Source: [Clostridium] celerecrescens 18A
Lineage (GTDB): Bacteria > Bacillota > Clostridia > Lachnospirales > Lachnospiraceae
Direction: 5' to 3'
DNA length: 64,000 nt
Assembly: GCF_002797975.1 (NCBI RefSeq)
Contig: NZ_PGET01000001.1
Span: 1,922,001 to 1,986,000 of the forward strand
Below, one piece after another: positions 12,772 through 31,773 of the stretch (position 1 is its first letter; the number at the start of each line of letters is the position of its first letter). The translations under genes were made by a program, and so were the position numbers. The notes under the pieces were generated by a model that saw only the letters and a program-made list of their open reading frames with translations, was not told the origin of the DNA and made no database searches.

Positions 12772-12822
12772 AAAATGAATGACCGGAGCAAAACATGTCC
12801 GTTTGCTCCGGTCATTCATTTT
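12772..12822 (-). terminator. Terminator of the BMC operon
   Basis: Two perfect 21-nt arms (12772-12792 and 12802-12822) with core ATGACCGGAGCAAA, ending in TTTT on the minus strand. It overlaps the last two bases of dhaL and marks the 3' end of the roughly 11.7-kb BMC operon. Confidence 0.88.
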
Positions 12823-13438
12823 ATATGTCTGCAGCTGCCTTCATGATAAGAGCTGCCACAGCAGCCCCGGGATCTTTTAAGGAGCGGGACGCTTCTCCTC
12901 TTGTTGCTGCCCTTCCATGAACGGCTATCATTGTCGTTGTATGTTCAAAACCATCCCATGCAGCTGTTGCAGCTTCCTCAAAGGCTTTCTCAAGGGATAC
13001 TCCGGCTTCCACTCCGGCTTTTAGTATCTGTACTCCGGGATGAAATCCATCCAAAAAGGTTTTATCCCCTAATTTTGCCTTACCCAGATCAGCAACACCT
13101 GCTTCATAGGCTTCAAACATATCAGCAACATCTGCACCGGACAATTCTGTCGTTCCTTTTAGTGTCTTCCCGGCACGCATCAGTCCTGCTGCCATCAACG
13201 TTCCCATGGTTGAAGGGACCTTATTACCCATGGTCTTTCCTGCCTTGTATAATAACTTGCCCAGATCCGGCTCCGATCCATCCGAAACCGCGTCGTAGGC
13301 CGCCTGGAATCCATCCGTCATCGTAAGTCCCAGATCACTGTCTCCCACAACACTGTCCAGTTCAATTAAGTAGTTTCGGTTTTCCACCATAATCTTACTT
13401 ATTCTGCCAAGCATGGCTATCAGTTCCTGCTGGTTCAT
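12821..13438 (-). CDS. dhaL: Dihydroxyacetone kinase subunit DhaL
   Basis: 205 residues from the ATG at 13438, where GGAGG lies 5 bp upstream inside the longer frame from 13450. An all-alpha nucleotide-binding subunit: LDSVVGDSDLG supplies the three Asp residues that bind Mg-ADP, and GNKVPSTMGT is the phosphate-loop region. With DhaK it phosphorylates dihydroxyacetone; in PTS-type systems ADP stays bound to DhaL and is rephosphorylated by DhaM. No dhaM is in the window, so the phosphate donor is open. It is the last gene of the BMC operon, 87 bp after dhaK. Confidence 0.88.
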   Translation of the reverse strand: MNQQELIAMLGRISKIMVENRNYLIELDSVVGDSDLGLTMTDGFQAAYDAVSDGSEPDLGKLLYKAGKTMGNKVPSTMGTLMAAGLMRAGKTLKGTTELSGADVADMFEAYEAGVADLGKAKLGDKTFLDGFHPGVQILKAGVEAGVSLEKAFEEAATAAWDGFEHTTTMIAVHGRAATRGEASRSLKDPGAAVAALIMKAAADI

Positions 13439-13525
13439 ATCAGCCTCCATTCTGCCGCTGATGCCGGCGGCATAAATAATCGTGACAAACGATATGCGCT
13501 TATACCATCTACTCCAATCGGATCT

Positions 13526-14539
13526 TTAGACAATTCCCTGCTTAAAGAATGGTGTATCAGCCGGAGCATCCAGATAGCCCTTCAGTTCCTCATCCATTTT
13601 CAAAAGGGAAATGGATAAGCCTGCCATCTCAATGGAGGTTACATATTCACCTACATAATAACGGTGCACCTTGATTCCCTTCTCTTCCAGAATCAGATTG
13701 ACCTTTCTTGCCACAATATACTGCTCATCAAGAGGAGTAGCTCCCAGTCCGTTTACCAGAACCGCAACCTCATCTCCGGCGCAGTATGGAATATCTTCTA
13801 GGATTTTTTCCATCATTTCTGATGTGATTTCATCTGCTGTTTCCAGTTTCCCCCGGCGGATTCCAGACTCTCCATGGATTCCCATACCGATTTCCATCTC
13901 ATCCTCTCCGATCTCAAATCCCGGATGACCGACTCTTGGTACTGTACAGGGGGTTAGTGCCACTCCCATGGTCCTTACATTGGCAGCCGCTTTCTCTGCA
14001 ATCCGTTTTACCTCCTGTAAATCCTTACCGGCTGCCGCTGCTGCTCCGGCGCATTTGTATACAAAAAAGATGCCTGCTACTCCTCTTCTGGTGTTCTTTT
14101 CTCCTGAAGCCGCCTTGGGAGATGCCACATCTTCCCCTGCAACAACGCTTTCCACATGGATATCCTCTTCCATATCTGCCATCTCTGCGGCCATGTCAAA
14201 GTTAAAGATATCCCCATTATAATTACCGTAAATATAAAGAACACCGGCTCCGGAATCAATGCGTTTCGTTACATTAAGCATCTGCTCCGCGCTGGGAGAC
14301 TGGAAAACATCTCCCACCGAACAGCCGTCTAACATCCCTTTTCCTACATAACCCAGAAACAGAGGAAGATGCCCCGAACCCCCTCCGGTCGCAATCCCTA
14401 CTTTTCCCTCTACCTTATTGGAGGTAACCAGACAGCGCAAGTCACCTTCCGTATAAGTAACATAGTCCGGATGAGCAAGGTAGATTCCCTCCAGCATCTC
14501 ATTCACATAGTTTTCCGGTACATTAATCAGTTTTTTCAT
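13526..14539 (-). CDS. dhaK: Dihydroxyacetone kinase subunit DhaK
   Basis: 337 residues. The substrate is held covalently as a hemiaminal by a His, here in GMGIHGESG (His222); GGGSGHLPLFLGYVG and NYNGDIFNFDMA are further DhaK signatures. Forms a kinase with DhaL, phosphorylating dihydroxyacetone or a similar short ketone or aldehyde. The AGGAGAAGG site is just before the ATG. It lies 34 bp after the alcohol dehydrogenase gene in the BMC operon. Since the aldolase upstream should already give DHAP, a kinase acting on free DHA or another C3 compound suggests either a side substrate or recovery of dephosphorylated product. Confidence 0.9.
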   Translation of the reverse strand: MKKLINVPENYVNEMLEGIYLAHPDYVTYTEGDLRCLVTSNKVEGKVGIATGGGSGHLPLFLGYVGKGMLDGCSVGDVFQSPSAEQMLNVTKRIDSGAGVLYIYGNYNGDIFNFDMAAEMADMEEDIHVESVVAGEDVASPKAASGEKNTRRGVAGIFFVYKCAGAAAAAGKDLQEVKRIAEKAAANVRTMGVALTPCTVPRVGHPGFEIGEDEMEIGMGIHGESGIRRGKLETADEITSEMMEKILEDIPYCAGDEVAVLVNGLGATPLDEQYIVARKVNLILEEKGIKVHRYYVGEYVTSIEMAGLSISLLKMDEELKGYLDAPADTPFFKQGIV

Positions 14540-14572: not shown

Positions 14573-15736
14573 TCAACCATATGCGTTCCGATACACTTCT
14601 ATGACCTGCTGGAGTGTCGGTCTAAATGGATTGTCCTCCATACAGGAATCCTTAAGCGCAATTTCTGCCAGAGCCTTAAAATCTTCAGGATTTACCTTAA
14701 GCTCTTTAAGATTTTGTGTAATCCCAACCTCTCTTGACAGCCGCCTGATACAGGCCACCGTTTCCTTCACGGCCTGTTCCCCTGTCATGGCAGACGCCCC
14801 AGGCAGTTTAAGTCCCTCTGCCACCTTCTTATACCGTTCCGCGGCTTCCGGCCTGCTTCCATTAAATTCCATGACAAAAGGCAGCAAAACCGCATTGCAG
14901 ATGCCGTGAGGCAGGTTCATAAGCCCTCCAAGAGAATGGGCCATGGCATGCACCATGCCAAGACCTGCATTGGAAAATGCCATGCCTGCGCTGTATTCCG
15001 CATAAGCCATCATTTCCCTGGCCTTTTCATTGCTTCCGTCAGCCACCGCTTCCGGAAGGTATGTACCAATCACGCCCATTGCCCAAAGGGCATCCTTATC
15101 CGTATATGGGGTCGCCCGTTTTGCCACAGCCGCTTCAACGGCATGGGTCATGGCATCCATTCCTGTGGAAGCCGTAAGGGCTTTTGGCATGCTCATCATT
15201 AAGTCCACATCATTAACGGCTATGGTAACCATACAGTTCGGGTCTACCATACACATTTTAGAATGTCTCACCGGGTCGGTCACGATATAGAACGAGGTAA
15301 CCTCAGAACCGGTTCCCGCAGTGGTATTCACCGCAACTATGGGCATTCCTGGATTAAGAGAGCGTTCTACCCCTTCATAGTCCTCCACCTTACCGCCGTT
15401 TGTCATCACAATGCTGACTGCCTTTGCCGTATCTATGGCAGAGCCACCGCCCACAGCCACCAGAAGGTCCACTTCCAGGGCCTTAGCAGCCTCCAGGCAG
15501 TCACCTACAACCATGGTGGTGGGATTGGGCTCAACCAAGTAGTAAATGGCGTATTCCATCCCGGCTTTTAAAAGACAGGCTCCCACTTTGTCACCGGTAC
15601 CATTTTTATACAGGAAGGGGTCCGTAACGATAAGTCCCCGTTTAAACCCCCGTTTCTTAAGCTCATCCGGCAGCAGCCCGATGGAACCGCGGCCAAAAAA
15701 ACTGGTCCCTACTGCATTGATCCTCTCAAGTGCCAT
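14573..15736 (-). CDS. Iron-containing alcohol dehydrogenase (BMC type)
   Basis: 387 residues, group III Fe-dependent ADH. Metal ligands are visible as Asp194 and His198 (MDAMTHAVE), His263 (VHAMAHSLGG) and His277 (LPHGICNA); the NAD site is GGGSAID. In BMC operons this enzyme regenerates NAD+ inside the shell by reducing part of the aldehyde to alcohol, here predicted acetaldehyde to ethanol or a substituted analogue. A 1,3-propanediol dehydrogenase-like activity is an alternative given dhaKL next door. AAGGAGG precedes the ATG. It is tightly linked (11 bp) to the CoA-transferase genes. Confidence 0.9.
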   Translation of the reverse strand: MALERINAVGTSFFGRGSIGLLPDELKKRGFKRGLIVTDPFLYKNGTGDKVGACLLKAGMEYAIYYLVEPNPTTMVVGDCLEAAKALEVDLLVAVGGGSAIDTAKAVSIVMTNGGKVEDYEGVERSLNPGMPIVAVNTTAGTGSEVTSFYIVTDPVRHSKMCMVDPNCMVTIAVNDVDLMMSMPKALTASTGMDAMTHAVEAAVAKRATPYTDKDALWAMGVIGTYLPEAVADGSNEKAREMMAYAEYSAGMAFSNAGLGMVHAMAHSLGGLMNLPHGICNAVLLPFVMEFNGSRPEAAERYKKVAEGLKLPGASAMTGEQAVKETVACIRRLSREVGITQNLKELKVNPEDFKALAEIALKDSCMEDNPFRPTLQQVIEVYRNAYG

Positions 15737-15747: not shown

Positions 15748-16473
15748 TTAGAATTCTATATTTCTGAAATCTCCCGGATCGATCCGTTTCAGCGCGCTCA
15801 GTTCTTCCTTTGTAGGAAGGGGCGTATAGGCGATATGGGAGTATTTTATTGGAAATCCGGTATTTTCCTGTACCTCCTCTAAGCTGGAAGTTGGGTGGAT
15901 GGTTTCAAGAACCATTTCTCCATGTTCCATTTTAAAGATGCATAAGGGGGTGATGATCCGTTCCACATTTCCCCTGGTAGTTACAAAATCCACCTGATTC
16001 ACAAAGGTGCGCTTATCATGCTTTGTCCTCCAGAGAATCGCCCTCTTTGCCGTTGGTATAAGAACAGCACTTCCTGCTCCTCCAGGCATCCTCACCTTTG
16101 GTTTTTTGTAATCTCCGATAACCGACGCATTGACATTGCCATGGGAATCAAACTGGATTCCGCTTAAGAATGCCACATCTAACCCCCCTCTCATGGCCAG
16201 GTCAAATACTTCCATTAAAGGAAAATATGAAGTGGAACGTTCCAAAAGCTCCGGGCCTGCACTGGTATACTTTTTAAGCCTCACCGGATCCGGGTCTGTT
16301 CCTCCCGGGATATTCAAATGTACAGCTCCCGGTGCATGAAGCGCTTTTGCAAGCAGCAGCGCAATCATGGGCATATGGGAGGATACTCCGTGAAAAACCT
16401 TGCTGCCGTCAGGTATGAGGCGGGCCATGGCGCAGACCATAATATCGCAGACTCTGTTTTTTTCTTCCATCAT
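15748..16473 (-). CDS. CoA-transferase subunit B (glutaconate/IpdB type)
   Basis: 241 residues. Family I CoA-transferase beta-type fold, with the motif SGIQFDSHGNVNASVIGDY and MPGGAGSA typical of GctB/IpdB-like proteins. The heterodimer partner is the next gene upstream (12 bp away). I could not securely place the catalytic Glu of true CoA-transferases; the related IpdAB proteins are hydrolases that lack it, so the reaction (CoA transfer or thioester/ring hydrolysis) is open. In this operon it probably acts on the acyl-CoA made by the aldehyde dehydrogenase, moving CoA to another acid. Confidence 0.75.
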   Translation of the reverse strand: MMEEKNRVCDIMVCAMARLIPDGSKVFHGVSSHMPMIALLLAKALHAPGAVHLNIPGGTDPDPVRLKKYTSAGPELLERSTSYFPLMEVFDLAMRGGLDVAFLSGIQFDSHGNVNASVIGDYKKPKVRMPGGAGSAVLIPTAKRAILWRTKHDKRTFVNQVDFVTTRGNVERIITPLCIFKMEHGEMVLETIHPTSSLEEVQENTGFPIKYSHIAYTPLPTKEELSALKRIDPGDFRNIEF

Positions 16474-16485: not shown

Positions 16486-17298
16486 TTATCCTTTGTAATC
16501 GGACTTTTCAAATGCCTTTAAATAGACATTCAGGCCGTCCAAATCTTTCAGCCCTTTAAATTCCTTTAGATTCTTTCCGTCAATATCATAAGAACCCGGA
16601 CAAGAACATGGTGCAGCCCCTTTGGGGACCCTGACAACTGCTTCCACCAGAAAATGAGGAATATCCGCCTTTTTTGAACTTCCGGTAAACGCAGATCCAT
16701 GGACGATATTCTCTGCTGTCAGGATGACCCTTTTGGCTGCCCTGGAAAACAGGACATCCTCAAATAATGGCCCTGTGATCCTGGCGTTCCCCTCTTCATC
16801 CGCCTCCTGTACATGAATAACCGCAACCTCCGGCCTTATGGCCTTTACCACTGTCACCGGCTCCTTTGTAAACGGATCCTCGACCCGTATGAAATAATCA
16901 TTGGCATCGATTAAGTCGCTGATCACAAGCCCCTTTACAGGCATGAATCCCACTCCGTAGCTGGCGGCACGGAGCGCGGAGATCACCGTATAACAGGCGT
17001 GCTCGTTCCCTTTGACAGCTCCGCTTTCAACGGCCCTGCGGTAATGTCCGGCCAGGGAATATTCACTTTCATAGCTGATAAAGCCGGCATCTACGCTGGA
17101 AACACAGCCTCCGAAACAAAGCATGTCCACATCCATGGCTCCTGCTGTCTTTACCAGCTTTAAGTCTCTTTTTTTCTGACGCACCAGTTCCCGTACCATC
17201 GCCATGGGCGCCCGATGGAGCACATTGCCGCCTAGGCCAAGAATATCTCCGTCATAGATCCGGGCGGCCGCCTCCTGCAAAGTCATTATTTTGCTCAT
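16486..17298 (-). CDS. CoA-transferase subunit A (glutaconate/IpdA type)
   Basis: 270 residues. Alpha-type subunit, beginning with a short helix and GLGGNVLHRAPMAMVRELVRQ, the CoA-binding N-terminal part of family I transferases; EADEEGNARITGP is the matching central motif. Pairs with the B subunit encoded 12 bp downstream. It belongs to the BMC operon, following the CoA-disulfide reductase gene by 31 bp. Substrate unknown. CoA-transferases are not standard in Pdu or Eut BMC loci, so this pair marks the locus as unusual. Confidence 0.75.
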   Translation of the reverse strand: MSKIMTLQEAAARIYDGDILGLGGNVLHRAPMAMVRELVRQKKRDLKLVKTAGAMDVDMLCFGGCVSSVDAGFISYESEYSLAGHYRRAVESGAVKGNEHACYTVISALRAASYGVGFMPVKGLVISDLIDANDYFIRVEDPFTKEPVTVVKAIRPEVAVIHVQEADEEGNARITGPLFEDVLFSRAAKRVILTAENIVHGSAFTGSSKKADIPHFLVEAVVRVPKGAAPCSCPGSYDIDGKNLKEFKGLKDLDGLNVYLKAFEKSDYKG

Positions 17299-17329: not shown

Positions 17330-18664
17330 TTATTTCGCTGCATTGCAGGCAATCTGGATGGCATCCCATACCCCGGAAAAGGGAGGTGCATAAATGAGAT
17401 CCGTCATTCCAAGCTCTGCCGTTGTCATCCTGCAATGAATTGCCACAGCAAATACATCTGCCCGCAAAACAGCCCCCTTTTGTCCGCAGGTCTGTGCACC
17501 AAGCAGCCTTTTTGTACCTTTTTCATAGATCAGCTTTATGGTGATCGGCGTTGGATCCGGATAGTACGCCGGATGGTCATTGGCCTGGATAACCAAAGTC
17601 TTATAATCCTTAGTTAGTCGTATGGCATCTCCTTCTCCCATACCCGTACGTCCAAGCTCCAGCCCGCAAACCTTGATCGCCGCAGACCCAAGGGCACCGA
17701 TAAACGCTTCATGGCCCCCTGCTAAATTGGCGCCTGCGATTCTGCCGCATTTGTTCGCAACTGTTCCAAGAGCCAAAAAGCTGTCTTCCTCTAATACTTC
17801 GTTATAGACTAAAATACAGTCTCCCGCCGCATACACATCCGGAATAGAGGTTCTCATTTCCTGGTCCACAATGAGGCCACCGTTTTTCCCCATGGTGATT
17901 CCTGTGTTCTTCAGAAATTCCGTACAGGGACGGACACCCACGGCAACGATCACCAGATCCGCATCGTAGGTTCCCTTATCTGTTTTTACACCTTTTACAT
18001 AAAGACCGTCTCCATAAAACCCTTCCACCTTTTCTCCGGTGTTAAGAAGGACCCCTGACTTTACCAACTCCTCATGGGCCAGGGCAGCGATTTGCTCGTC
18101 AAAGGGCATAAGGATTCTGGGCGCTGCCTCAAGCATACGGACATTCTTTCCCAGATTCAAAAATGCTTCCGCACACTCCACTCCGATATATCCGCCTCCA
18201 ACGATGACGATGTTTTGGACTTCCGGCATTTTTGCATATTCCTTTAAAAAGATGCCGTCTTCCATGGACTTAAGAACATGGACTCCCATAAGCTCCTTGC
18301 CCGGAAAGGGAGGAACCACAGCCGATGCCCCAACAGCTATCATTAATTTATCATAAGAATCCGTAAATTCCTGACCGTTTTCAAGGTTCTTTACAAGGAC
18401 CTCTTTCCTTTCCACGTCAACGGATTGTACCTCGTGGCGGAGGAAGGTTTCTATGCCCATCTTAGTGAAGGTCTCCCGTGAACGGGCGATCATCTTGCGG
18501 TAATCATCGTTATAGTCCCCTACATAGTAGGGAAGTCCGCACGCTCCATAAGAGAGAAAGCCTCCCTTTTCATAGACCGTTACTTTCGCGTCCGGGTCGA
18601 CCCTGCGGATCTTGGAGGCGGCACTCATTCCTGCCGCTACTCCTCCAATTATAATAATCTTCAT
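17330..18664 (-). CDS. CoA-disulfide reductase / NADH oxidase-like flavoprotein
   Basis: 444 residues, pyridine-nucleotide-disulfide oxidoreductase of the Cdr/Nox type. The FAD site is GGVAAGMSAA at the N-terminus, the NAD site GGGYIGVECAEAF near residue 160, and the single redox Cys42 sits in SYGACGLPYY, the signature of CoA-disulfide reductases. Predicted to reduce CoA-S-S-CoA (or polysulfide/persulfide, or O2) with NAD(P)H. In a BMC operon with two CoA-dependent steps, keeping CoA reduced is a reasonable role. The ribosome site is GGGAGAA; it starts 21 bp after the upstream gene. Confidence 0.82.
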   Translation of the reverse strand: MKIIIIGGVAAGMSAASKIRRVDPDAKVTVYEKGGFLSYGACGLPYYVGDYNDDYRKMIARSRETFTKMGIETFLRHEVQSVDVERKEVLVKNLENGQEFTDSYDKLMIAVGASAVVPPFPGKELMGVHVLKSMEDGIFLKEYAKMPEVQNIVIVGGGYIGVECAEAFLNLGKNVRMLEAAPRILMPFDEQIAALAHEELVKSGVLLNTGEKVEGFYGDGLYVKGVKTDKGTYDADLVIVAVGVRPCTEFLKNTGITMGKNGGLIVDQEMRTSIPDVYAAGDCILVYNEVLEEDSFLALGTVANKCGRIAGANLAGGHEAFIGALGSAAIKVCGLELGRTGMGEGDAIRLTKDYKTLVIQANDHPAYYPDPTPITIKLIYEKGTKRLLGAQTCGQKGAVLRADVFAVAIHCRMTTAELGMTDLIYAPPFSGVWDAIQIACNAAK

Positions 18665-18685: not shown

Positions 18686-19810
18686 TTACCGTTCGGTCAT
18701 GCTATTTATCTTATGCCCGGCTTCCTTCATGGCTTCTTCTGCTGTCTTTTTTCCGGAAAATGCCTCAAAGATTTTCTCATAAAGGACTCCGTTTTTCTCC
18801 CCTGCCTTTGACAGATCGGGAAGGGGTCTTGCAAGTTCTATCATCTTCTGCTGTACCGGAAACCAGGGGCAGTCACCGGCCCCTTTCAGATAGCTTCCTC
18901 TTCTTACTGGAGCACCACTCTTTCTTCCCACCTTCTGATCCACCTCCGGTGACCGAAGGTACGAAAGAAATTCCTCTGCAGCTTCTTTTTTCCTGCAGCT
19001 TGAACAGATTCCAAAGGACCAGGTCACGTTCCATGCCGTGGAAAAAGTGGAAAATCCCAGATCCTCTGGTTCCAGACAGCCTTCCTTAAACACTTCACCC
19101 ATCTGACCGCTCCAGGTAACTGCCATAGCTGCTCTTTTTTGGCGGATAGCCTCTGCAATTTCCCCATTGCCGAATCTATCCGTACCGCCAACTGCACAGG
19201 ATCTCAGTTCCGCATAGGATTTCAGACCCTTTACCGCATCTTCCTTTCCGCAGGCCGCAGATCCATCGGGATCATAAGCATCTCCTCCGTACATGCGCAG
19301 GAAGGGAAGGGCATCGGTAAATATCTCAGACTTATCAGCCTTCATGGCTACTGCCCGTTCCCCGCAGGCCGCCTTGTAAGCTTTTGCCGTTTCTATGTAT
19401 TCCTGGGGAGTGATGACGCTTCCAAGTTCCTTCCCCAGTACCTGTTCAAGCAGGCTTTTACGGTAGACGATCATATGTCCGTCGCAGAAAGAGGGAGATA
19501 AATACGTCTTTCCCTTATACTTCATTTCTTCTGCAATGACCGGAAGGATATCTTCTTCCTCAAGCGCAAGTTCCGAAAGGTATCCGTTTTCTACAAAATC
19601 ACGAAGCCATAAATGGCCTGCAACCATGACAATGTCATAATCTGCTTCTCCGGCAAATGCTTTCATCATCATCGGATAGTAATCCGCCCAGGGCACGATA
19701 TGAAAATCAACGTTTCCACCATATCCGTCTATAATCCCCAGTTCTTTATCCAGATAGCCTTCCACCGCCGGATCTGCCACTGCCAAAATCTTAAGCGTTT
19801 CCTGTTCCAT
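18686..19810 (-). CDS. Leaderless extracellular-solute-binding-protein-like protein in BMC operon
   Basis: 374 residues from the ATG at 19810 (AGGAGAGG 8 bp upstream; a GTG two codons earlier is possible). The whole sequence looks like a family 1 sugar-binding protein (PYDIVMVAGHLW-like start domain, WSGQMGEVF and WNVTWSFGIC in the second lobe), but it starts directly with the first beta strand (TLKILAVAD) and has no signal peptide or lipobox. It lies inside the BMC operon, between the EutN vertex gene and the CoA-disulfide reductase gene, far from any permease. It should be cytosolic; it may bind or chaperone substrate or intermediate, or act as a sensor. Role unknown. Confidence 0.7.
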   Translation of the reverse strand: MEQETLKILAVADPAVEGYLDKELGIIDGYGGNVDFHIVPWADYYPMMMKAFAGEADYDIVMVAGHLWLRDFVENGYLSELALEEEDILPVIAEEMKYKGKTYLSPSFCDGHMIVYRKSLLEQVLGKELGSVITPQEYIETAKAYKAACGERAVAMKADKSEIFTDALPFLRMYGGDAYDPDGSAACGKEDAVKGLKSYAELRSCAVGGTDRFGNGEIAEAIRQKRAAMAVTWSGQMGEVFKEGCLEPEDLGFSTFSTAWNVTWSFGICSSCRKKEAAEEFLSYLRSPEVDQKVGRKSGAPVRRGSYLKGAGDCPWFPVQQKMIELARPLPDLSKAGEKNGVLYEKIFEAFSGKKTAEEAMKEAGHKINSMTER

Positions 19811-19839
19811 AAGCACTACCTCTCCTATTACGTTAAGCC

Positions 19840-20100
19840 TTACCTTCCCGGCTGCGGCGGCGCATCTACGATGCCAACGATATAGGCATCAACAGGTGCC
19901 GAACGGTCCAGCGCATACTGAGTCGTATTGTCAGTGGTTACTAATACCAGTTCCCCAATCCCAGCACCAATGGTATCGGCCGCTACAAAAGTATCCTTAT
20001 GATCTCCATAATATGGTTCTACCAAAAGAAGCTTGAACCCAACCAGGTTCCTGCATTTTCTAGTGGAAACCACAGTTCCCATTATTGTTCCTAATATCAC
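19840..20100 (-). CDS. eutN: BMC pentameric vertex protein (EutN/CcmL family)
   Basis: 86 residues, the usual length of EutN/CcmL. The start MILGTIMGTVVST and the segment DTIGAGIGELVLVTT are family hallmarks. Pentamers cap the twelve vertices of the icosahedral shell. The start is GTG, overlapping the pduL stop as GTGA. It is the only vertex gene in the locus. Confidence 0.93.
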   Translation of the reverse strand: MILGTIMGTVVSTRKCRNLVGFKLLLVEPYYGDHKDTFVAADTIGAGIGELVLVTTDNTTQYALDRSAPVDAYIVGIVDAPPQPGR

Positions 20101-20753
20101 CTGGCCTCTTCCTTTCTAATGGTTACCCATTGTCCCTGCTTTAACTGGAACGCATTGGCATCGTCAGTATCCACATGGAAATCCAGCCTGCTGTCACGGG
20201 TAACACGAATAAGTACATGGCCGAGCACGCCGCCCTTTGGCCCATCTACTGAAACACTTACCCGGTCCTGATCCGATACCCCAAACCACCGGGCGTCTTC
20301 CGGCGTCATATGAATATGACGGTCCACAATGATGACGCCCTCTGTCAGAAGGATTTCTCCCTTTGGCCCCTTAAGCATTACCCCGGGAGTTCCCTTTAGA
20401 TCTCCCGATGATCTTACCTGTGGCTGTATTCCAAGGATTCTGCAGTCACCGGAGGCCATTTCCACCTGGCTTTGTTTTCTCTCCGGTCCCAGAATCCGTA
20501 CCTTAGGAAGCGTTCCTGCCGGACCGGAGACAGCAACCTGTTCCTCACAGGCAAACTGTCCCGGCTGGCTTAATGCTTTCATGGGAGTCAGCCGGTATCC
20601 GGCTCCAAAAAGCGCTTCTACATGTTCCTTTGACAGATGCACATGCCTTGCCGAGATTCCTACGGGAACCTGGTAAGGCTGTGTGCTAAGCCTCTTCCAG
20701 TTATCCAGGACCAGTGAGGTTACCTTCTGAATCAGTTCTTCCCTGTTTTCCAT
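20097..20753 (-). CDS. pduL: Phosphotransacylase PduL
   Basis: 218 residues. The BMC-type phosphate acyltransferase, unrelated to Pta. Zn-binding His motifs are visible as GISARHVHLSKEHV (first domain) and VDRHIHMTPEDA (second domain). Converts acyl-CoA plus phosphate to acyl-phosphate and CoA inside the shell, recycling the CoA used by the aldehyde dehydrogenase. The N-terminal 25 residues (ELIQKVTSLVLDNW) form an amphipathic helix suited to be an encapsulation peptide. GGAGG lies 9 bp before the ATG. Confidence 0.93.
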   Translation of the reverse strand: MENREELIQKVTSLVLDNWKRLSTQPYQVPVGISARHVHLSKEHVEALFGAGYRLTPMKALSQPGQFACEEQVAVSGPAGTLPKVRILGPERKQSQVEMASGDCRILGIQPQVRSSGDLKGTPGVMLKGPKGEILLTEGVIIVDRHIHMTPEDARWFGVSDQDRVSVSVDGPKGGVLGHVLIRVTRDSRLDFHVDTDDANAFQLKQGQWVTIRKEEAR

Positions 20754-21449: not shown

Positions 21450-21470
21450 GACGCCCACCTTTGCTGAAGA

Positions 21471-24495: not shown

Positions 24496-24562
24496 ATCTT
24501 TACCTCCAAAGTCCAAACAACTACATGTTTTCCCTGTCCGAACTTTCCTCTTTTATACTGTA

Positions 24563-24591: not shown

Positions 24592-24631
24592 TGTTTTATG
24601 TTGTTTTATTTCTGTTTTTACTGTTTTATTT
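24592..24631. promoter_or_regulatory. Tandem 10-bp operator repeats, BMC operon / deoR
   Basis: The plus strand reads TGTTTTATGT, TGTTTTATTT, CTGTTTTTAC, TGTTTTATTT at exact 10-bp steps, preceded by a weaker TGTTTGTCAA unit at 24582. The 18-mer at 24592-24609 and the 15-mer TTTTATACTGTATTT at 24551-24565 both recur identically in front of the importer operon (31928-31945 and 31908-31922). Best reading: binding sites of the adjacent DeoR-family regulator. Confidence 0.65.
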
Positions 24632-24679: not shown

Positions 24680-24765
24680 ATACTTATATACCACATGATT
24701 TTTATGGTTTTGTATTGCATTTTATTTTAATTATCATTTATTGTCATAAAGAAAGGAATATGCCT

Positions 24766-25533
24766 ATGTTAGCAGTAACAAGGAAAGCCAAGATCAAAGA
24801 TATTATTTTAGAAAAGAAAAGCGTTACGGTGACCGAACTTTCCAAGATTTTCTCCGTGACCGAAGAAACCATCCGGCGGGATTTAAAGCAATTGGAGGAT
24901 GACGGGTTCCTGACCAGAACATACGGCGGTGCATTCATACAAGATGGGGTTGAGAATAACGTAGAATTAACGATCCGGGAAACCGCATATATGGAAAGCA
25001 AGCAGGCTATTGCAAAAAAATGCCTGTCCGTGATCCACAACGGCGACTCCATTTTCTTAGATGCCTCTACCACATCCCTGCAGCTGGCAAAAGCTCTCCA
25101 GGGGATGCGCCTTACCGTGGTAACTAACTCCCTGCTGATCATCAATGAACTTTATGACAAAGAAGATATCCGCCTCATTTCCATCGGAGGTTCCTATACC
25201 CCCCGGGACAAAGCCTTTGTAGGAAATACAGCAATCCGGAACCTAGAATCTTTTTACTTAGACAAGACCTTCATGTCCTGCAGAAGCGTTTCCATAGAAC
25301 ATGGAATCACCGATTCCAACGAAGCCATTGCCGCCATACGCCAGACACTGATGACCCGGAGCAATCATGTGTATCTGATCGCCGACCACTCCAAGTTCGA
25401 TAAAACCTCCTTCATCCGGATATCCGGTTTTGAAACCATCAAAGGACTGGTCACCGACAAGCAGATGAACGAACAATGGAGAGAATATCTTTTAAAAAAC
25501 AACGTAGAGCTTCTTGAAGCCGCGGAAGCATAA
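24766..25533 (+). CDS. DeoR-family sugar-catabolism regulator
   Basis: 255 residues from the ATG at 24766 (GAAAGGA 8 bp upstream); a frame open from 24481 runs through the promoter region and is not used. The N-terminal winged helix (VTVTELSKIFSVTEETIRRDLKQLE) is the DeoR DNA-binding domain; the C-terminal sensor domain (about 75-235) has the sugar-phosphate isomerase-like fold with DASTTSLQLAK and SIGGSYTPRDKAFVG. Such regulators respond to a sugar phosphate. It is divergent from the BMC operon and followed by a terminator shared with the importer/mtn operon; repeats in both operon promoters suggest it controls both. Confidence 0.9.
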   Translation: MLAVTRKAKIKDIILEKKSVTVTELSKIFSVTEETIRRDLKQLEDDGFLTRTYGGAFIQDGVENNVELTIRETAYMESKQAIAKKCLSVIHNGDSIFLDASTTSLQLAKALQGMRLTVVTNSLLIINELYDKEDIRLISIGGSYTPRDKAFVGNTAIRNLESFYLDKTFMSCRSVSIEHGITDSNEAIAAIRQTLMTRSNHVYLIADHSKFDKTSFIRISGFETIKGLVTDKQMNEQWREYLLKNNVELLEAAEA

Positions 25534-25608: not shown

Positions 25609-26715
25609 TTACATTTCCTTTGCTTTCAGGGCTTCTTCCTTCTTCCTGAATATTTCTTTTAATGATTCTGTATAGGGTGCTCTGGCGATCCCGTATTCCG
25701 TCACGATCCCTGCGATCAGATCATTATCCGTCACATCAAATGCAGGATTAAATACCTTTACGCCTTCCGGTGCCATCCGTTTTTTATACCACATCTCCAC
25801 CACTTCCTCTGCCGGGCGTTCCTCAATGTGGATCTCCTTACCGGTAAGAGTGTTCATATCAATGGTGGAGGTTGGGGCGCAGATATACATGGGCACACCG
25901 TAGCGTTTGGCTGCCAGGGCTACCATGGAGGTTCCGATCTTATTTGCAGTATCACCGTTGGCAGCCACCCTGTCACAGCCTACAAATACGGCATCGACCC
26001 AGCCATTTCTCATGACGGTCGCTGACATGTTGTCACAAATCACTGTAACATCAAGACCAGACTCCTTTAATTCGAAAGAGGTCAGTCTCGCGCCCTGAAG
26101 AAGGGGTCTTGTCTCGTCCGAAAAGATGCGGAAGCCATAGCCCTTTTCGTGTCCCAGATACATGGGAGCTGTCGCAGTTCCGTACTTTACCGTAGCTAAC
26201 TGCCCGGCATTGCAGTGGGTCAAAAGGCCGTCGCCCGGCTTTACAAGAGACAAACCATATTCTCCGATCATCTTGCAGACCCAGATATCTTCTTCCCGGA
26301 TCTCTATTGCCTCTTTATGAAGGAGTTCAACGATCTCAGGAACAGTCCTCTCTGTATTTTTCAGAACCACCTGTTCCATCCGTTTCAGCGCCCATGATAA
26401 ATTGACGGCAGTAGGACGTGCGGAATCTAGATAGTCCTTTGCTTTTTGGAATTCTGCATAAAAATCTTCAAAACGATCTGCTTTGATCTCCCGTGCGGCC
26501 AGATAAATGCCAATCGCTGCCGCCACACCGATGGCAGGTGCCCCTCTTACCTGAAGAAGATAGATTGCATTCCAGATATCCTCCTGTTTTGTCAGGGAAA
26601 GTATTTCCGTATGATACGGCAGCTGTGTCTGGTCAATAATGACCAGGGCATTGTTCACTTCATCTAGCGCAACAGTATCATAGTCCATGATGGATTTTTT
26701 TGTTTCTTCGCTCAT
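25609..26715 (-). CDS. mtnA: MtnA-like 5-substituted-ribose-1-phosphate isomerase
   Basis: 368 residues, full length for MtnA. The catalytic Cys168 (LTHCNAGQLAT) and Asp248 (VGCDRVAANGDTANKIGT) are both present, as is GAPAIGVAAA. MtnA converts 5-methylthioribose-1-phosphate to the ribulose-1-phosphate; homologues (DrdI type) do the same with 5-deoxyribose-1-phosphate. It is the last gene of the importer operon, 38 bp after the kinase gene. None of the usual later methionine-salvage genes (mtnB, mtnC, mtnD, mtnW/X) are here, and the regulon instead supplies an aldolase, favouring a DHAP-shunt function. Confidence 0.9.
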   Translation of the reverse strand: MSEETKKSIMDYDTVALDEVNNALVIIDQTQLPYHTEILSLTKQEDIWNAIYLLQVRGAPAIGVAAAIGIYLAAREIKADRFEDFYAEFQKAKDYLDSARPTAVNLSWALKRMEQVVLKNTERTVPEIVELLHKEAIEIREEDIWVCKMIGEYGLSLVKPGDGLLTHCNAGQLATVKYGTATAPMYLGHEKGYGFRIFSDETRPLLQGARLTSFELKESGLDVTVICDNMSATVMRNGWVDAVFVGCDRVAANGDTANKIGTSMVALAAKRYGVPMYICAPTSTIDMNTLTGKEIHIEERPAEEVVEMWYKKRMAPEGVKVFNPAFDVTDNDLIAGIVTEYGIARAPYTESLKEIFRKKEEALKAKEM

Positions 26716-26753: not shown

Positions 26754-27986
26754 TTACCGGCTTCCAAACTTACCGATAGCCTCTTTAATTGCATTCAAAT
26801 AATCTTCTCCGCTCCGGAAGCTGCGGCGGTTCATTATATAATTCTTTGCCAGCGTAATGACGATCTTTTCGGCCCTGGCCCGTTTTTCCTCGTCAGGAAT
26901 TGTGGTAATATCAATGACATTAGCCATTCCTACAGTCCGGCGGATGGATTCAAGTCCTGCTACACCTGCAGTGTCGGAAAGGATGCCTTCCAGATACCAT
27001 TCCTTAAATCCCGGTACCTTTGCCATGGTTTCCGTTACGTGCTCATCAAAGACCTTGTTGTACTTTTCAATGAACAAGTCCACAATGTCGGAGATCGTAC
27101 TTAGGCACCAGCCGCAGAACTCCTCTTTTTCCTTTTCATCTTCAATGGTGGCGTCACCGTTGCACCATGCAAAAAACATATTTGCAATGACATTGCCGAT
27201 ATCATAGCCCATAGGTCCGAAGAAGGCGAATTCCGGATCAAAGATGTAAGTGTGCTCTTTATTAATAAACACAGAGCCAGTATGTAAATCTCCATGAATC
27301 AGAGACTGGGCATTGTTCATGAACTCAAACTTCAGCTTGGCTGCTTCCAGATGCAAGGCCTGATCCTCGTACAGTTCCTTCTTTACAAAATCTGCATTGG
27401 GTGGAAATACATTGTTCCTGTGGTTGTAATCAATAAAGGGTTCGCTGTATACCAGATCCTCTGAAATCTCGCAAAGGTCCGGATTGATAAAGCTTTTAAC
27501 CAGTTCTTTTTTCTCTTTGTGTCCCAGGACAATATCCGTTGTACGCAGAAGGGAATTAACCATAAAAGTGGTCACATGATCCGCAAATTTAGGATAAGTC
27601 TCATGTTTTAACAGACCGGTACGCATCATGGTATGACCGATCATATCCTCCATGACCATGGCACACATGGTTCCGTCATACAGGTAAACCTTTGGAACCA
27701 GCCCCGGAGCATAAGAATCCTGGATCCCAAGAATCTTTGCTTCAATTCTTCCGCGGTCGGTGGAAACATGCATTTCTGCTGAAATACGAAGCGCTTCTCC
27801 TGCCTGCTTCACGATGATGGTTTTCCCGCTTGCAGGATCCTTTACACGAAACACATAGTTTAAGTTTCCGTCTCCGATCTCCTTACATTCCAGCCTGGCA
27901 TCCGCATCAAAATAAGTGAGCTTCTCCTTAACATAATCCGGTACCTCTTCCGCTTTCATCAAAAAATAACTGTCGTATTTAGACAT
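26754..27986 (-). CDS. mtnK: MtnK-like 5-methylthioribose / 5-deoxyribose kinase
   Basis: 410 residues from the ATG at 27986 (GGGGAAGG 8 bp upstream; a GTG three codons earlier is less likely). A protein-kinase-like small-molecule kinase: IGDGNLNYVFRV N-lobe, catalytic loop LIHGDLHTGS, metal motif YIFDPEFAFFGP, all as in MtnK. Phosphorylates the anomeric C1 hydroxyl of a ribose lacking a free 5-OH. Encoded between the ribose-type permease and the MtnA-like isomerase, so the imported sugar is its likely substrate. 5-methylthioribose, 5-deoxyribose or another 5-modified ribose cannot be told apart from sequence by eye. Confidence 0.88.
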   Translation of the reverse strand: MSKYDSYFLMKAEEVPDYVKEKLTYFDADARLECKEIGDGNLNYVFRVKDPASGKTIIVKQAGEALRISAEMHVSTDRGRIEAKILGIQDSYAPGLVPKVYLYDGTMCAMVMEDMIGHTMMRTGLLKHETYPKFADHVTTFMVNSLLRTTDIVLGHKEKKELVKSFINPDLCEISEDLVYSEPFIDYNHRNNVFPPNADFVKKELYEDQALHLEAAKLKFEFMNNAQSLIHGDLHTGSVFINKEHTYIFDPEFAFFGPMGYDIGNVIANMFFAWCNGDATIEDEKEKEEFCGWCLSTISDIVDLFIEKYNKVFDEHVTETMAKVPGFKEWYLEGILSDTAGVAGLESIRRTVGMANVIDITTIPDEEKRARAEKIVITLAKNYIMNRRSFRSGEDYLNAIKEAIGKFGSR

Positions 27987-28019
27987 TCCTGTCACCTTCC
28001 CCTGATCAATATAACGTTT

Positions 28020-29039
28020 TTAGTTTACATTTTTTGTCTTGCCGCTTGCATAGGTCATGGCAAGGGCAATGGCAAGGACTGCTCCCTTTATGATGTTCAT
28101 GGCATAATATGGCACGGACATCATGATAAGACCATTCTCCAGCATACCCACAAGCACCGCTCCCGCAAAGGTACCAAATGCATTGGCTTTTCCGGCACCT
28201 AATACAGAAAACCCGATATAAGCCGCACATACAGATGGCATCAGGTAGGCATCACCTGCTGAAATCTGCGCCGTTCCCACACGTGCTGCCAGGCAGATTC
28301 CGCCGATCGAAGCAAAGGCAGCTGACAGAAAGTATGCAAGGATCTTATACTTTGCTACCGGAATACCGGAAAGCTGGGCCGCCTCAGGATTTCCGCCTAC
28401 AGCATACATGTATCTGCCGTGTTTGGTATAATTTAAGAAAAAGTATGCAAACAGCACCACACAGATCATGATGATGATCAGCCATGGTTCCTTTCCCAAT
28501 GCCCGGAAGGCTTCGGGAACTAGGCCGGGAGCCTGGGTCCCATCGGCGCGTGTCATACGCTCAGTGATAGCGCCGCCCTTGGAATAGGTCATGGAAACTC
28601 CCTGATACATAAACATTACGGAAAGTGCCGCAACCATATCCGGTATCTTGAATTTTACGATCAAAATACTGTTGATGACTGCAACGCTTAGGCATATGAG
28701 TACCGTAAGAATGATGGAAACACCTATATTGATGTTGTGCCATACAAAGCACGTCATAACAAAAACATTGGCAAACTGAGCCGTAGCTCCAATGGAAAGG
28801 TCCATGCCGTTTACCGCCAGGGCAAACGTAAGACCGATTGCAATGATGGTGGTGATGGATACCGCACGAAGGATCGTGATCATATTAGACTGGGTAAGAA
28901 ACATGCTCGTTCCCGTATCCTTGCTCCAGTTTCCAAACGTAAACAGGATGAACATGATAAGCATCGTTGCGATGGTACCCCATTTTGTCACAAAATCCCC
29001 AACGTTCCTTTTCTTTTTTACCTTCTCTGCCCCAGACAT
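28020..29039 (-). CDS. Ribose-type ABC transporter permease
   Basis: 339 residues with about ten membrane helices, RbsC/BPD_transp_2 family: AVNGMDLSIGATAQ near residue 90 and LSAAFASIGGICLAARVGTAQ near 240 are family signatures. Dimer forms the channel of a sugar importer with the ATPase gene ending one base upstream and the lipoprotein further up. Placement before the mtnK- and mtnA-like genes marks the imported sugar as a 5-modified ribose (inference). Confidence 0.9.
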   Translation of the reverse strand: MSGAEKVKKKRNVGDFVTKWGTIATMLIMFILFTFGNWSKDTGTSMFLTQSNMITILRAVSITTIIAIGLTFALAVNGMDLSIGATAQFANVFVMTCFVWHNINIGVSIILTVLICLSVAVINSILIVKFKIPDMVAALSVMFMYQGVSMTYSKGGAITERMTRADGTQAPGLVPEAFRALGKEPWLIIIMICVVLFAYFFLNYTKHGRYMYAVGGNPEAAQLSGIPVAKYKILAYFLSAAFASIGGICLAARVGTAQISAGDAYLMPSVCAAYIGFSVLGAGKANAFGTFAGAVLVGMLENGLIMMSVPYYAMNIIKGAVLAIALAMTYASGKTKNVN

Positions 29040-29040: not shown

Positions 29041-30552
29041 TCATTTACCTCCTGTCGAATAGTAAAGCAGTTCTTTTTCGTTCGTATCTGCTGCGTTTAA
29101 TTCTTTAATAATTTCTCCGTCATACATCACATAGATGCGGTCGCAGATACTTAATATTTCCTGGAATTCGCAGGTGGCATAAATTATACCTTTTCCCCTG
29201 GCTGCCAAACCTTCAATTAACTCATACATATCCTGCTTGGCTCCCACGTCGATCCCTTTGGTCGGCTCGTCAAAAATATAAACCTCTGAATCCTTATTCA
29301 GCCATTTTCCAACGACCACCTTTTGCTGGTTTCCGCCGGATAGCAGGGCAACAACCTGGTTCTCGGATGGGGTCTTGATTCCAAGGCCGCGTATCATATT
29401 TTTGGCGTCCTCTTTTTCCCGCTTCTTGTTTACTACAGAAAGCCGGTTCGTATATTTTTCCATGGCTGCCACAGAGATATTGGAGACAACCGGGTCCGAA
29501 ATCAGGACGCCTTCTTTTCTCCGCTCTTCCGGAACCAGTGCAAGCCCATGCTTCACGGCCTGGGTAGGCCCTTTTGCCTTGATCACTTTTCCGTTTAACT
29601 TCATGGTGCCGCCTGACTGCTGGTAAGCGGAAAACAGGGTCTTGCAAAGCTCTGTCTTGCCAGCGCCCACCAATCCTGCTACTCCGATAATCTCTCCTTT
29701 GCAAACGGTCATGTTGATATCTTTTACTTTCCCTTCCCTTTCGGAGAGGTTTTCTATTTCAAGCAACGGCCCGCCGATCTCGCACTTTTTCTTGATGTAA
29801 TTATCCTCATAGCTACGGCCTAACATATATTCGACAAGAGTATTTACTTCCAGTTCTTTAGAAAGCGGCAGTTCAGTCACCAGTTTGCCGTCTCTCATAA
29901 TGGTAATATTTTCACAAATCTCGTAAAGCTCACTTAATCGGTGGGAAATAAACACCACTCCCACATTCTCTTTCGCCAGCTCACGCACCACCCGGAACAA
30001 TTCCAGTGTCTCGGAATTGGAAAGAGGGGCCGTGGGTTCATCCAAAATCAGGAACCTGCACTTTTCCGCCACGCATCTGGCTATGAGAACCATCTGTTTT
30101 TGCGCCAGGGTAAGTCCTGATACCTGTTTATTAATATCCACTTCTACATTTAATTTCTTTAATACCGTTTCTGCTGCCTGCCTGATCTCTTTCCAGTGCA
30201 CGATTTGCTTTCGCCCCATTTTATTGACCAGCGTGTTGAACATTACATTCTCAGCCACGGACAGATAGGGAATCAGCGCGGTGTCAACTTCCTGAAATAC
30301 GATTTCTATCCCAAGATTTTTAGCGTCTTTGGGGCACCGGATTTCCACCGGTTCCCCTCCAACGTAAATTTGTCCTGTATAATGCGTATTGACACCGGCA
30401 AGCACTTTCATTAAGGTGGACTTACCTGCGCCATTAGCACCCACAAGCGCATGAATCGTACCACTTTTCAGACCAAAATCAACTCCATCCAAAGCCTTAA
30501 CTCCAGGAAATTCGATGGATATATCTTTCATTTCAAGTTTTACTTCGGTCAT
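29041..30552 (-). CDS. Ribose-type ABC transporter ATPase, two nucleotide-binding domains
   Basis: 503 residues, RbsA/MglA plan with two fused ATPase domains. First domain: Walker A GANGAGKST, Walker B LILDEPTAPL. Second domain: GLVGAGKTELC in the Walker A position, signature LSGGNQQKVV, Walker B YIFDEPTKGID. Usual for the family, the two halves are not equally canonical. Powers the adjacent permease. Follows the binding-protein gene by 42 bp. Confidence 0.93.
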   Translation of the reverse strand: MTEVKLEMKDISIEFPGVKALDGVDFGLKSGTIHALVGANGAGKSTLMKVLAGVNTHYTGQIYVGGEPVEIRCPKDAKNLGIEIVFQEVDTALIPYLSVAENVMFNTLVNKMGRKQIVHWKEIRQAAETVLKKLNVEVDINKQVSGLTLAQKQMVLIARCVAEKCRFLILDEPTAPLSNSETLELFRVVRELAKENVGVVFISHRLSELYEICENITIMRDGKLVTELPLSKELEVNTLVEYMLGRSYEDNYIKKKCEIGGPLLEIENLSEREGKVKDINMTVCKGEIIGVAGLVGAGKTELCKTLFSAYQQSGGTMKLNGKVIKAKGPTQAVKHGLALVPEERRKEGVLISDPVVSNISVAAMEKYTNRLSVVNKKREKEDAKNMIRGLGIKTPSENQVVALLSGGNQQKVVVGKWLNKDSEVYIFDEPTKGIDVGAKQDMYELIEGLAARGKGIIYATCEFQEILSICDRIYVMYDGEIIKELNAADTNEKELLYYSTGGK

Positions 30553-30594
30553 GGCATCTCTTCCTTAATTATGTAATGAATACAGAGCGTTTCT

Positions 30595-31773
30595 TTAATT
30601 TACATATTTGTTCTTGATTGTATCAGTATATAGTGCGCCCTTAGGATCTTCGGCATCGCCCCATCCATCAATGATGCTGCTCAAATCACTCATGGTTGTC
30701 TGAGCATTGAGCTGGGTTGTTTCAATGTTACATGCATTTAGGTTAAAGTAATCCGGTGTTTCTTCTCCCATAAATTTAAGAGCCAAAAGACGGGCATCTA
30801 CAATACCGATCAGTTTCGGATCAACGGCTGCAGTAGATTTCCACACGTCAGGATTCTTTACCATTAACTGAATGTCATCGTTGGATACATCAATGGTGTA
30901 CATTGGGATATCGGTACGTCCAGCGTCGTTCAATGCCTGTAATACACCCTTTGCCAGCTCATCGTAGCAGCCCCAGATGGCATCTACGGAACCTTCCGGA
31001 TATTTAGGAAGAATAGCAGCTGTCTTGTTGGTCATATCGCCGCGGGCATTGGCTGAATCAGATGGCGCAATCACTTCCAGGGTCTGGATCTTGCCTTCTG
31101 CTTCCAGCTTGGTATAGATTTCGTTACGTCTGTCTAACGGAGGGATTCCAGGGCCCATGAAGGTCTTTAAAACTTTCATAGGGTACTTTCCGCCTTTTGC
31201 TTCAAACTCTTTCATCATGTAGCCAAGGGAAAGCTCGGCCAGCGCCTGATCGTTCTGAGCGGTGGAAGTTACTCCGGAAAGAAGCTCGCCGCTTGCATCT
31301 CCGCCCTTAAATGGCATGGTATCAAAGGTAACAACCTCCATGCCTTTGTCTCTGGCAGGCTTTAACATATCATAGGAATAAGACAGCTGTCCGTGAGATA
31401 CGATAATTCCCTGATAATCTTTTGCAATAACCTGAGCTACTGTCTCCTGAGCCTTTGCATCATCGCCGTCTGTCACAAAAGTGTCTACGGTCCAGCCAAA
31501 CTTCTTCCCCTCGGATACACAGCCATCTAAAAACTGCTGGGTATGGTCTCCTGCTGCCAGGTTCCGCACAACGGCGATCTTTTTTCCTGCAAGAGAGCCT
31601 GTGGACTGGGCGTTTTCAACCTTCTCCGCTGTAGTCGCCGGTTCCGTCTTAGCTGCTTCCGTCTTTGCTTCTGTGGATGCCGGTGCAGCTGTTGCTGCTG
31701 TGCCGCTGCTGCCGCATGCAGTTGTTGACAATACCATTGCTGCTGCAAGCACCATTGCTAACCTCTTTTTCAT
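30595..31773 (-). CDS. Sugar-binding lipoprotein (RbsB/periplasmic-binding type 1)
   Basis: 392 residues from the ATG at 31773 (AAAGGAGG upstream; the open frame to 31857 passes through the promoter). Signal peptide residues 1-19 with lipidation at Cys20 (LSTTACG), a Ala/Glu/Thr-rich linker, then the type 1 periplasmic-binding fold (KIAVVRNLAAGDHTQQF onward). Captures the sugar outside the membrane for the permease/ATPase encoded downstream. First gene of the importer-mtnK-mtnA operon, behind a strong promoter and the shared tandem repeats. Confidence 0.92.
   Translation of the reverse strand: MKKRLAMVLAAAMVLSTTACGSSGTAATAAPASTEAKTEAAKTEPATTAEKVENAQSTGSLAGKKIAVVRNLAAGDHTQQFLDGCVSEGKKFGWTVDTFVTDGDDAKAQETVAQVIAKDYQGIIVSHGQLSYSYDMLKPARDKGMEVVTFDTMPFKGGDASGELLSGVTSTAQNDQALAELSLGYMMKEFEAKGGKYPMKVLKTFMGPGIPPLDRRNEIYTKLEAEGKIQTLEVIAPSDSANARGDMTNKTAAILPKYPEGSVDAIWGCYDELAKGVLQALNDAGRTDIPMYTIDVSNDDIQLMVKNPDVWKSTAAVDPKLIGIVDARLLALKFMGEETPDYFNLNACNIETTQLNAQTTMSDLSSIIDGWGDAEDPKGALYTDTIKNKYVN

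Follow-up and report, generated by a model that had tools for sequence, protein, structure and literature searches.

The stretch of DNA analysed here (the window) comprises 64,000 nucleotides of [Clostridium] celerecrescens 18A (contig NZ_PGET01000001.1, positions 1,922,001 to 1,986,000) and carries, at window positions 12821-31773, a bacterial microcompartment (BMC) locus that is joined to genes for a ribose-type importer, an MtnK-type kinase and an MtnA-type isomerase. We are highly confident that this locus specifies an encapsulated dihydroxyacetone phosphate (DHAP) shunt acting on some 5-substituted ribose, and 5-deoxyribose is probably the substrate. The sequence itself shows which parts are present and that they are recurrently linked; it also shows that catalytic residues are retained, that the aldolase, the aldehyde dehydrogenase (AldDH) and PduL carry tails, and that two promoters have a repeat in common. 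An encapsulated shunt had been proposed in the original prediction, and the linkage, the residues, the single-copy mtn genes, the separate fucose and rhamnose gene sets and the promoter repeat all speak for it. The half of the locus consisting of aldolase, AldDH and shell already fits a published PVM-like group, so that the novelty lies in the kinase-isomerase-importer half and hence in the substrate.

Open reading frames and Pfam and NCBIfam matches delineate two blocks that look like operons, both on the minus strand and separated by a DeoR gene on the plus strand. The upstream block runs from the ribose-type binding protein through ATPase, permease and MtnK to MtnA. The downstream block begins with a class II aldolase and a coenzyme A (CoA)-acylating AldDH, continues with four BMC-H proteins, PduL, EutN, a MalE-fold protein and a CoA-disulfide reductase, and ends with a CoA-transferase-type pair, an Fe-dependent alcohol dehydrogenase (Fe-ADH), DhaK and DhaL. 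MtnK, MtnA, AldDH, PduL and the CoA-disulfide reductase pass their NCBIfam cut-offs. The features are as follows.

12821..13450, minus strand: DhaL-type (Dak2) subunit (PF02734, E 3.4e-36).
13526..14539, minus strand: DhaK-type (Dak1) subunit (PF02733, E 8.8e-124; 396 bits, just below the dhaK1 equivalog cut-off of 406).
14573..15736, minus strand: Fe-dependent alcohol dehydrogenase (PF00465/PF25137; best match lactaldehyde reductase, below cut-off with 411 versus 523 bits).
15748..16473, minus strand: CoA-transferase-family subunit B (PF01144; nearest solved chain 5n03_D, E 7.7e-30).
16486..17298, minus strand: CoA-transferase-family subunit A (PF01144).
17330..18664, minus strand: CoA-disulfide reductase family flavoprotein (PRK09564, 550 bits, cut-off 458).
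18686..19816, minus strand: MalE-fold solute-binding protein, signal-less and probably intracellular (PF01547; AlphaFold2; Foldseek).
19840..20100, minus strand: BMC-P shell pentamer (EutN/CcmL; PF03319, E 1.4e-24).
20097..20753, minus strand: PduL phosphotransacylase with N-terminal helix (PF06130, E 3.5e-75; the N-terminal extension is found in relatives too).
20790..21089, minus strand: BMC-H shell protein (PF00936, E 1.2e-30).
21090..21458, minus strand: BMC-H shell protein (PF00936, E 5.7e-16).
21471..21749, minus strand: BMC-H shell protein (PF00936, E 2e-30).
21756..22175, minus strand: BMC-H shell protein, true start probably internal (PF00936, E 1.7e-14).
22111..23532, minus strand: CoA-acylating aldehyde dehydrogenase of the PduP/EutE type with N-terminal helix (PRK15398, 660 bits, cut-off 403).
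23542..24516, minus strand: class II aldolase with C-terminal linker and putative encapsulation helix (PF00596, E 3.4e-50).
24760..25533, plus strand: DeoR-family regulator (PF08220, PF00455; start inferred, the reading frame opens at 24481).
25609..26715, minus strand: MtnA-type 5-substituted-ribose-1-phosphate isomerase (TIGR00512, 410 bits, cut-off 279).
26754..27995, minus strand: MtnK-type 5-substituted-ribose kinase (TIGR01767, 419 bits, cut-off 275).
28020..29039, minus strand: ribose-type ATP-binding cassette (ABC) permease (PF02653, E 1.8e-34).
29041..30552, minus strand: ribose-type ABC ATPase (AraG/XylG/RbsA-type models, none of the ten best-listed above cut-off).
30595..31773, minus strand: ribose-type binding protein, start inferred (PF13407, E 7e-24).

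Shell proteins, PduP, PduL, Fe-ADH, aldolase, importer and the two mtn-type enzymes are thus in place as originally described; that inventory had overlooked DhaKL, the CoA-disulfide reductase, the CoA-transferase-type pair and the signal-less binding protein. It had also held that the locus lacks a diol dehydratase, a glycyl radical enzyme and an ethanolamine lyase, and none of these was matched by Pfam or NCBIfam among the genes of the interval. The same comparison gave no MtnW, MtnX or MtnB beside MtnK and MtnA, no RuBisCO-like gene, no DeoC-type aldolase and no RpiB, and the shell set (four PF00936 proteins and one PF03319 protein) includes no tandem BMC-T. A metabolosome is represented in its usual components, BMC-H and BMC-P shell genes together with a core of AldDH, phosphotransacylase and alcohol dehydrogenase.

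The linkage of mtn genes, importer and shell recurs across Bacillota. For an aldolase-centred set, one genome per species was scanned with an aldolase alignment and the best 80 of 541 confirmed loci were taken, so that the set represents the nearest relatives and not a random sample. Within these best 80, 54 loci have at least one BMC-H match, and MtnK and MtnA are both encoded in 38 of these 54, at least one of them in 39. When only loci with flanks of at least 7 kb on both sides were counted, both genes were found in 30 of 37 shell loci, the seven without the pair being L016-L019, L022, L037 and L039. Shell context was defined as a BMC-H match or the presence of both PduL and AldDH. Thirteen of the 15 shell-context loci devoid of mtn genes were checked for MtnK genome-wide (L015 and L055 were left out), and seven have one elsewhere, six over the cut-off and L023 with a partial match; in L037 the kinase and the shell genes share a contig and are about 52 kb apart. 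A less biased approach started from MtnK in 246 genomes of the order, 18 of which have the gene, with 21 copies in total. For ten of the 21 copies the distance to a BMC-H gene is 3.3-4.7 kb (taken from tables), compared with about 0.3 expected for a target of about 30 kb per shell cluster and genomes treated as independent, three of the ten being from one genus. The nine other than that of the window were mapped, and all nine carry MtnK, MtnA, permease, ATPase, aldolase, AldDH and BMC-H; the CoA-disulfide reductase and the CoA-transferase-type pair accompany them in eight, and the ninth, L111, ends at a contig edge. The same places were reached twice as L024/L112 and L027/L110. In a Treponema metagenome-assembled genome (MAG; L048), mtn genes stand with EutN, PduL and AldDH, with no BMC-H match. 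Given that 38 of 54 shell-bearing relatives among the best 80 of 541 have both mtn genes and that ten of the 21 order-wide MtnK genes lie near a shell gene, the locus is not a local accident.

The DHAP shunt and the Drd pathway are represented by linked genes of the MtnK, MtnA and class II aldolase types, and residues that we take to be catalytic are kept in all three products. Aldolase residues E91, H110, H112 and H173, presumably serving in metal binding and acid/base catalysis, are conserved in 67/67 shell-context rows and in 36/36 others, and the presumed catalytic residues C168 and D248 of MtnA and HGD, DxE and RR of MtnK are at least 97% invariant (82 and 83 rows). The aldolase passes none of its 25 best-listed NCBIfam models (best 121 bits versus a cut-off of 250), so its substrate is not readable from a family name. 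Its nearest structures in the PDB are fuculose-1-phosphate aldolases, and it has about 30% identity to DrdA in a fold alignment; structure 6voq, considered as Ald2, was rejected, as it is YgbL.

Extra helices are found at the C-terminus of the aldolase and at the N-termini of AldDH and PduL, and inspection by eye revealed no encapsulation tail on MtnK, MtnA, DhaKL, the CoA enzymes or the alcohol dehydrogenase. The aldolase had originally been credited with an encapsulation helix. A helix is indeed predicted for residues 302-323, following a low-confidence and probably disordered segment (241-304), and it is conserved in 24 aligned sequences; the AlphaFold2 model is weak (mean pLDDT only 64.6) and the hydrophobic moment of the tail is unexceptional (rank 25 of 307 windows), as are those of the other tails (45/456 and 34/201).

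That one DeoR regulator serves both operons, another element of the original prediction, is suggested by a candidate 18-bp operator present in both promoters.

24592..24609, plus strand: candidate operator, tandem repeat TGTTTTATGTTGTTTTAT (18 bp), in the aldolase/DeoR promoter.
31928..31945, plus strand: candidate operator, the same 18 bp as at 24592..24609, in the importer-mtnKA promoter.

The window has two occurrences of the pattern TGTTTTATN{1,4}TGTTTTAT, at these two positions, and not one was found in 100 shuffles. Genome-wide it occurs three times in 5.27 Mb, with no occurrence of the backward control. The third site, which we take to be a chance occurrence, is found where a polynucleotide-phosphorylase-like gene ends, ahead of genes resembling a GntR-type regulator and glycerol-3-phosphate dehydrogenase (named by eye). 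We relied on this genome-wide count because the longest-common-substring control was noisy: it gave 18 for the window, where 200 shuffles reached at most 15, but for L031 one of 60 shuffles reached 19. Conservation was tried in 20 loci, 19 of them with an importer promoter; the repeat is common to both promoters only in L010, with 18 bp, and L014, with 16 bp, and L032 has a different common 14-mer. L010, from Lacrimispora celerecrescens, agrees with the window in gene order and has an aldolase 93% identical to that of the window. In the E. coli DHAP shunt the repressor is MtnR, also of the DeoR family (PMC12632272). Upstream of the importer operon there is, in addition, an inverted repeat (34 nt, 79% complementary, 5-nt loop, window 32102-32174), possibly a terminator or a folded leader.

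The genome, a single contig of 5.27 Mb, has three BMC loci including that of the window, the one at 2.47 Mb encoding EutB/EutC and the one at 4.70 Mb a glycyl radical enzyme. MtnK and MtnA are single-copy, with one genome match each, both at this locus; the class II aldolase gives six matches. L-fucose isomerase (fucI) is encoded at 2.36 Mb, adjoining a rhamnulokinase-like kinase and a class II aldolase that are both below the cut-offs for naming, and L-rhamnose isomerase (rhaA), rhamnulokinase and rhamnulose-1-phosphate aldolase stand together at 3.09 Mb. A 5'-methylthioadenosine/S-adenosylhomocysteine nucleosidase is encoded at 4.20 Mb, and relatives of this enzyme release 5-deoxyribose or 5-methylthioribose from nucleosides. 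As to plasmid origin, a megablast of the stretch from aldolase to MtnK against a plasmid collection returned zero matches.

MtnK sequences were placed in a tree of 83 rows (quick search, SH-aLRT support, no bootstrap) that did not include Bacillus thuringiensis DrdK. One branch (SH-aLRT 99) holds all 51 shell-context rows, 19 of 22 rows with a soluble aldolase and two of ten rows lacking an aldolase; the other eight aldolase-less rows lie outside it. Among the latter, the L131 operon is one of methionine salvage, with MtnB, MtnX and MtnW, and relatives of these three also occur in L128 and L130. The shell label needs at least ten changes on starred branches, which suggests frequent gain or loss of shells around a single pathway. 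In the aldolase tree branches are long, and loci with and without MtnK are not separated.

From these data we infer the substrate, the aldehyde, the localisation of the enzymes, their regulation and the formation of a shell as follows. The ribose-type ABC transporter would import a 5-substituted ribose, most likely 5-deoxyribose, which MtnK would phosphorylate at C1 and MtnA isomerise to the ribulose-1-phosphate, both enzymes being presumably cytosolic as no encapsulation tail was seen on them. The ketose-1-phosphate would then pass into the shell, and the class II aldolase encapsulated there would cleave it to DHAP and an aldehyde, acetaldehyde in the case of 5-deoxyribose. Encapsulated AldDH and PduL would convert part of the aldehyde to acyl-phosphate, the Fe-ADH would reduce the remainder to the alcohol so that NAD and CoA are recycled, and DHAP would leave for glycolysis. 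The DeoR repressor would govern both operons.

Several observations weigh against this scheme or narrow it. The sequence fixes no group at C5, and 5-deoxyribose is the favoured one among 5-substituted riboses. MtnK and MtnA are both present in 7/12 full-flank loci that have no shell match (best 80 of 541), so the mtn genes accompany the aldolase as well as the shell. Conversely, six of the 13 shell loci checked (L016-L019, L022, L025) have no MtnK genome-wide and yet have aldolases 63-74% identical to that of the window; with the other sugar genes annotated in L016, L017 and L022, this means that the aldolase is not diagnostic. The MtnK of L136 falls inside the shell branch and adjoins methionine-salvage genes (MtnB/X/W relatives). 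The promoters of L012, L013 and L031 have no common repeat beyond shuffle level. A tail is no proof of a shell, because L070, L073, L080 and L086 have tailed aldolases and a genome search gave no BMC match for them; a strict encapsulation reading is further at odds with L028, which has a shell and an aldolase lacking such a tail. Finally, the simple scheme has no need of DhaKL, the CoA-transferase-type pair or the MalE-fold protein. As a separate observation, the four tailed aldolases may be relics of shell loss, or the genomes may be incomplete.

The same encapsulated pathway could have 5-methylthioribose as its main substrate, methylthioacetaldehyde being released by the aldolase and either oxidised to a methylthioacetyl thioester or reduced to methylthioethanol, and the CoA-disulfide-reductase and CoA-transferase-type genes handling the sulfur compound. 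MtnK and MtnA do exceed the cut-offs for methylthioribose kinase and methylthioribose-1-phosphate isomerase, and DrdK of B. thuringiensis uses 5-deoxyribose and methylthioribose with close kcat/Km (PMC6079011). Further evidence comes from a second architecture found in eleven loci (L043, L045, L051, L054, L058, L059, L066, L068, L069, L075 and L081), which mostly keeps the order importer-MtnK-MtnA-DeoR-aldolase (no DeoR match in L058; L069 and L081 start at MtnK) and has a different shell block. It includes an RnfC-like protein in all eleven and a FucU/RbsD-type mutarotase in seven (L045, L051, L054, L058, L068, L069 and L075), and in six (L054, at 8830-9984, L066, L068, L069, L075 and L081) a RuBisCO-like protein is encoded between the DeoR regulator and the aldolase. 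Its nearest solved chain is 3qfw, which we take to be Rhodopseudomonas palustris RLP1. RLP1 is a 5-methylthioribulose-1-phosphate isomerase (PMC5893883). The RuBisCO-like protein would thus be a second enzyme tying the sister shell locus to a 5-substituted ribulose-1-phosphate, and it is the best hint of methylthioribose in that subtype. However, such an isomerase could equally act on 5-deoxyribulose-1-phosphate, which may then give 1-deoxyxylulose-5-phosphate, an isoprenoid precursor; moreover, neither RuBisCO-like nor methionine-salvage genes were found among the genes of the window interval, and AldDH, PduL and the alcohol dehydrogenase form an ordinary core for short plain aldehydes. Methylthioribose as the main substrate is considered unlikely.

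Alternatively, the shell could take several ketose-1-phosphates, MtnK and MtnA providing one and DhaKL phosphorylating a free ketose (e.g. a 5-deoxyketopentose or erythrulose) for the same aldolase. DhaK is encoded in 14 of 113 loci (13 distinct places), and in L029 and L085 it stands beside the aldolase with no MtnK or MtnA in the stretch examined. Both of these stretches are small, at 5.6 and 7.8 kb, dihydroxyacetone may be the sole substrate of DhaKL, and no DhaKL was seen in the Bacillus and Clostridium loci, where coverage stops about 10 kb from the aldolase; we judge such a second feed to be quite improbable. The MalE-fold protein (AlphaFold2 mean pLDDT 92.6; Foldseek MalE3, E 2.5e-24; no NCBIfam match at E 1e-15) occurs in 29 of the 113 loci, at 27 distinct places, with no signal peptide apparent on visual inspection. 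It is also encoded with shell-less MtnK-MtnA-aldolase sets (L076, L120 and L129) and may serve the pathway as a binding or sensing protein within the cell. The CoA-transferase-type pair (15748-17298) is nearest to 5n03, of the glutaconate CoA-transferase family. Its B subunit reads LNIPGG at what we take to be the position of the catalytic Glu of such transferases, so that the pair may be a hydrolase or a decarboxylase.

A PVM-like BMC for L-fucose, L-rhamnose or another common sugar, with the mtn genes forming a separate salvage operon, would agree with the structural neighbours of the aldolase, with the expectation that PVM-like loci share PVM-like substrates (PMC8156839, PMC4207490) and with the 6/13 shell loci that have no MtnK genome-wide. 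Five loci of this kind (L016-L019 and L022) form a third group, which keeps aldolase, AldDH and shell and has no MtnK in the genome. The annotated ones have differing sugar genes, and these too count against our scheme: a phosphotransferase system (PTS) and a fructose-bisphosphate-aldolase-type gene in L016, another ABC binding protein and an oxidoreductase in L017, and a PTS with an RpiB-like gene in L022. The shell core therefore seems to accept different sugar fronts. On the other hand, the mtn-importer half is recurrently linked to the shell half across loci, and in the window the promoter repeat is common to both operons, while fucose and rhamnose have gene sets of their own elsewhere in the genome. 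Linkage and separate gene sets set these sugars back as substrates, and we regard this alternative as very improbable. Methionine salvage was rejected because MtnB, MtnW and MtnX are absent among the genes of the interval.

5'-Deoxyadenosine is a by-product of radical S-adenosylmethionine (SAM) enzymes, and methylthioadenosine is one of polyamine synthesis; 5-substituted riboses arise from both, and large amounts may be shed by anaerobes with many radical SAM enzymes. With evenly divided confidence, we propose a microcompartment family across Bacillota, perhaps also in Spirochaetota (one Treponema MAG), for 5-deoxy and 5-methylthio riboses derived from SAM enzymes, in which a shelled DHAP shunt would have been repeatedly gained or lost around the soluble pathway, a RuBisCO-like protein may divert the ketose phosphate in one subtype and the MalE-fold protein may bind an intermediate intracellularly. 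If the encapsulated shunt proposed for the window is right, a microcompartment type of Lachnospiraceae, Clostridium and Bacillus relatives would let cells feed on SAM waste and would trap a toxic aldehyde. Loci whose substrate has so far only been guessed at would gain a testable one, the DHAP shunt would have a role in growth of anaerobes, and the fields of BMCs and of SAM by-product salvage would be joined.

In the open-licence PMC literature, supplementary tables and subscription papers aside, we found no paper joining microcompartments with the 5-deoxyribose/DHAP-shunt pathway. In Acetobacterium woodii, a methylthioribose kinase adjoins pduU/pduV and is regarded as having no part in BMC function (PMC7593272). 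Class II aldolase loci of the present kind have been catalogued as PVM-like with fucose- or rhamnose-like substrates expected (PMC4207490, PMC8217296, PMC8156839), and the traits given for that group, a class II aldolase and, in most of its loci, a DeoR regulator and BMC-H outnumbering BMC-P, are present here (PMC4207490). The locus differs in being linked to MtnK, MtnA and a ribose-type importer rather than to fucose or rhamnose genes, and in its Fe-ADH, which is reported for only one of the PVM-like loci in the 2014 description (PMC4207490). With the PVM BMC for fucose and rhamnose it has an aldolase-based metabolosome in common, here with one BMC-P and four BMC-H (PMC4207490). The SPU BMC with DeoC and RpiB is likewise proposed to convert a sugar phosphate to a triose phosphate and acetaldehyde (PMC8217296); in the present locus there is no DeoC or RpiB, and the reaction would involve a 1-phosphate ketose and DHAP, not 2-deoxyribose phosphate and glyceraldehyde-3-phosphate. 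GRM5, a glycyl radical type for fucose and rhamnose, resembles it in the class II aldolase and DeoR regulator in Firmicutes (PMC4207490), whereas the window locus is without a glycyl radical enzyme (one lies at 4.70 Mb). The closest enzymatic parallels are soluble: DrdK-DrdI-DrdA, which dispose of 5-deoxyribose by a series of kinase, isomerase and class II aldolase, with transporter genes in some clusters (PMC6079011), and the E. coli DHAP shunt mtnK-mtnA-ald2 with MtnR, which has the same enzyme series and a DeoR-type regulator and allows growth on 5-deoxyribose (PMC10986504, PMC12632272). In contrast to these soluble pathways, the aldolase described here has a putative encapsulation tail and is encoded together with AldDH, PduL and a shell.

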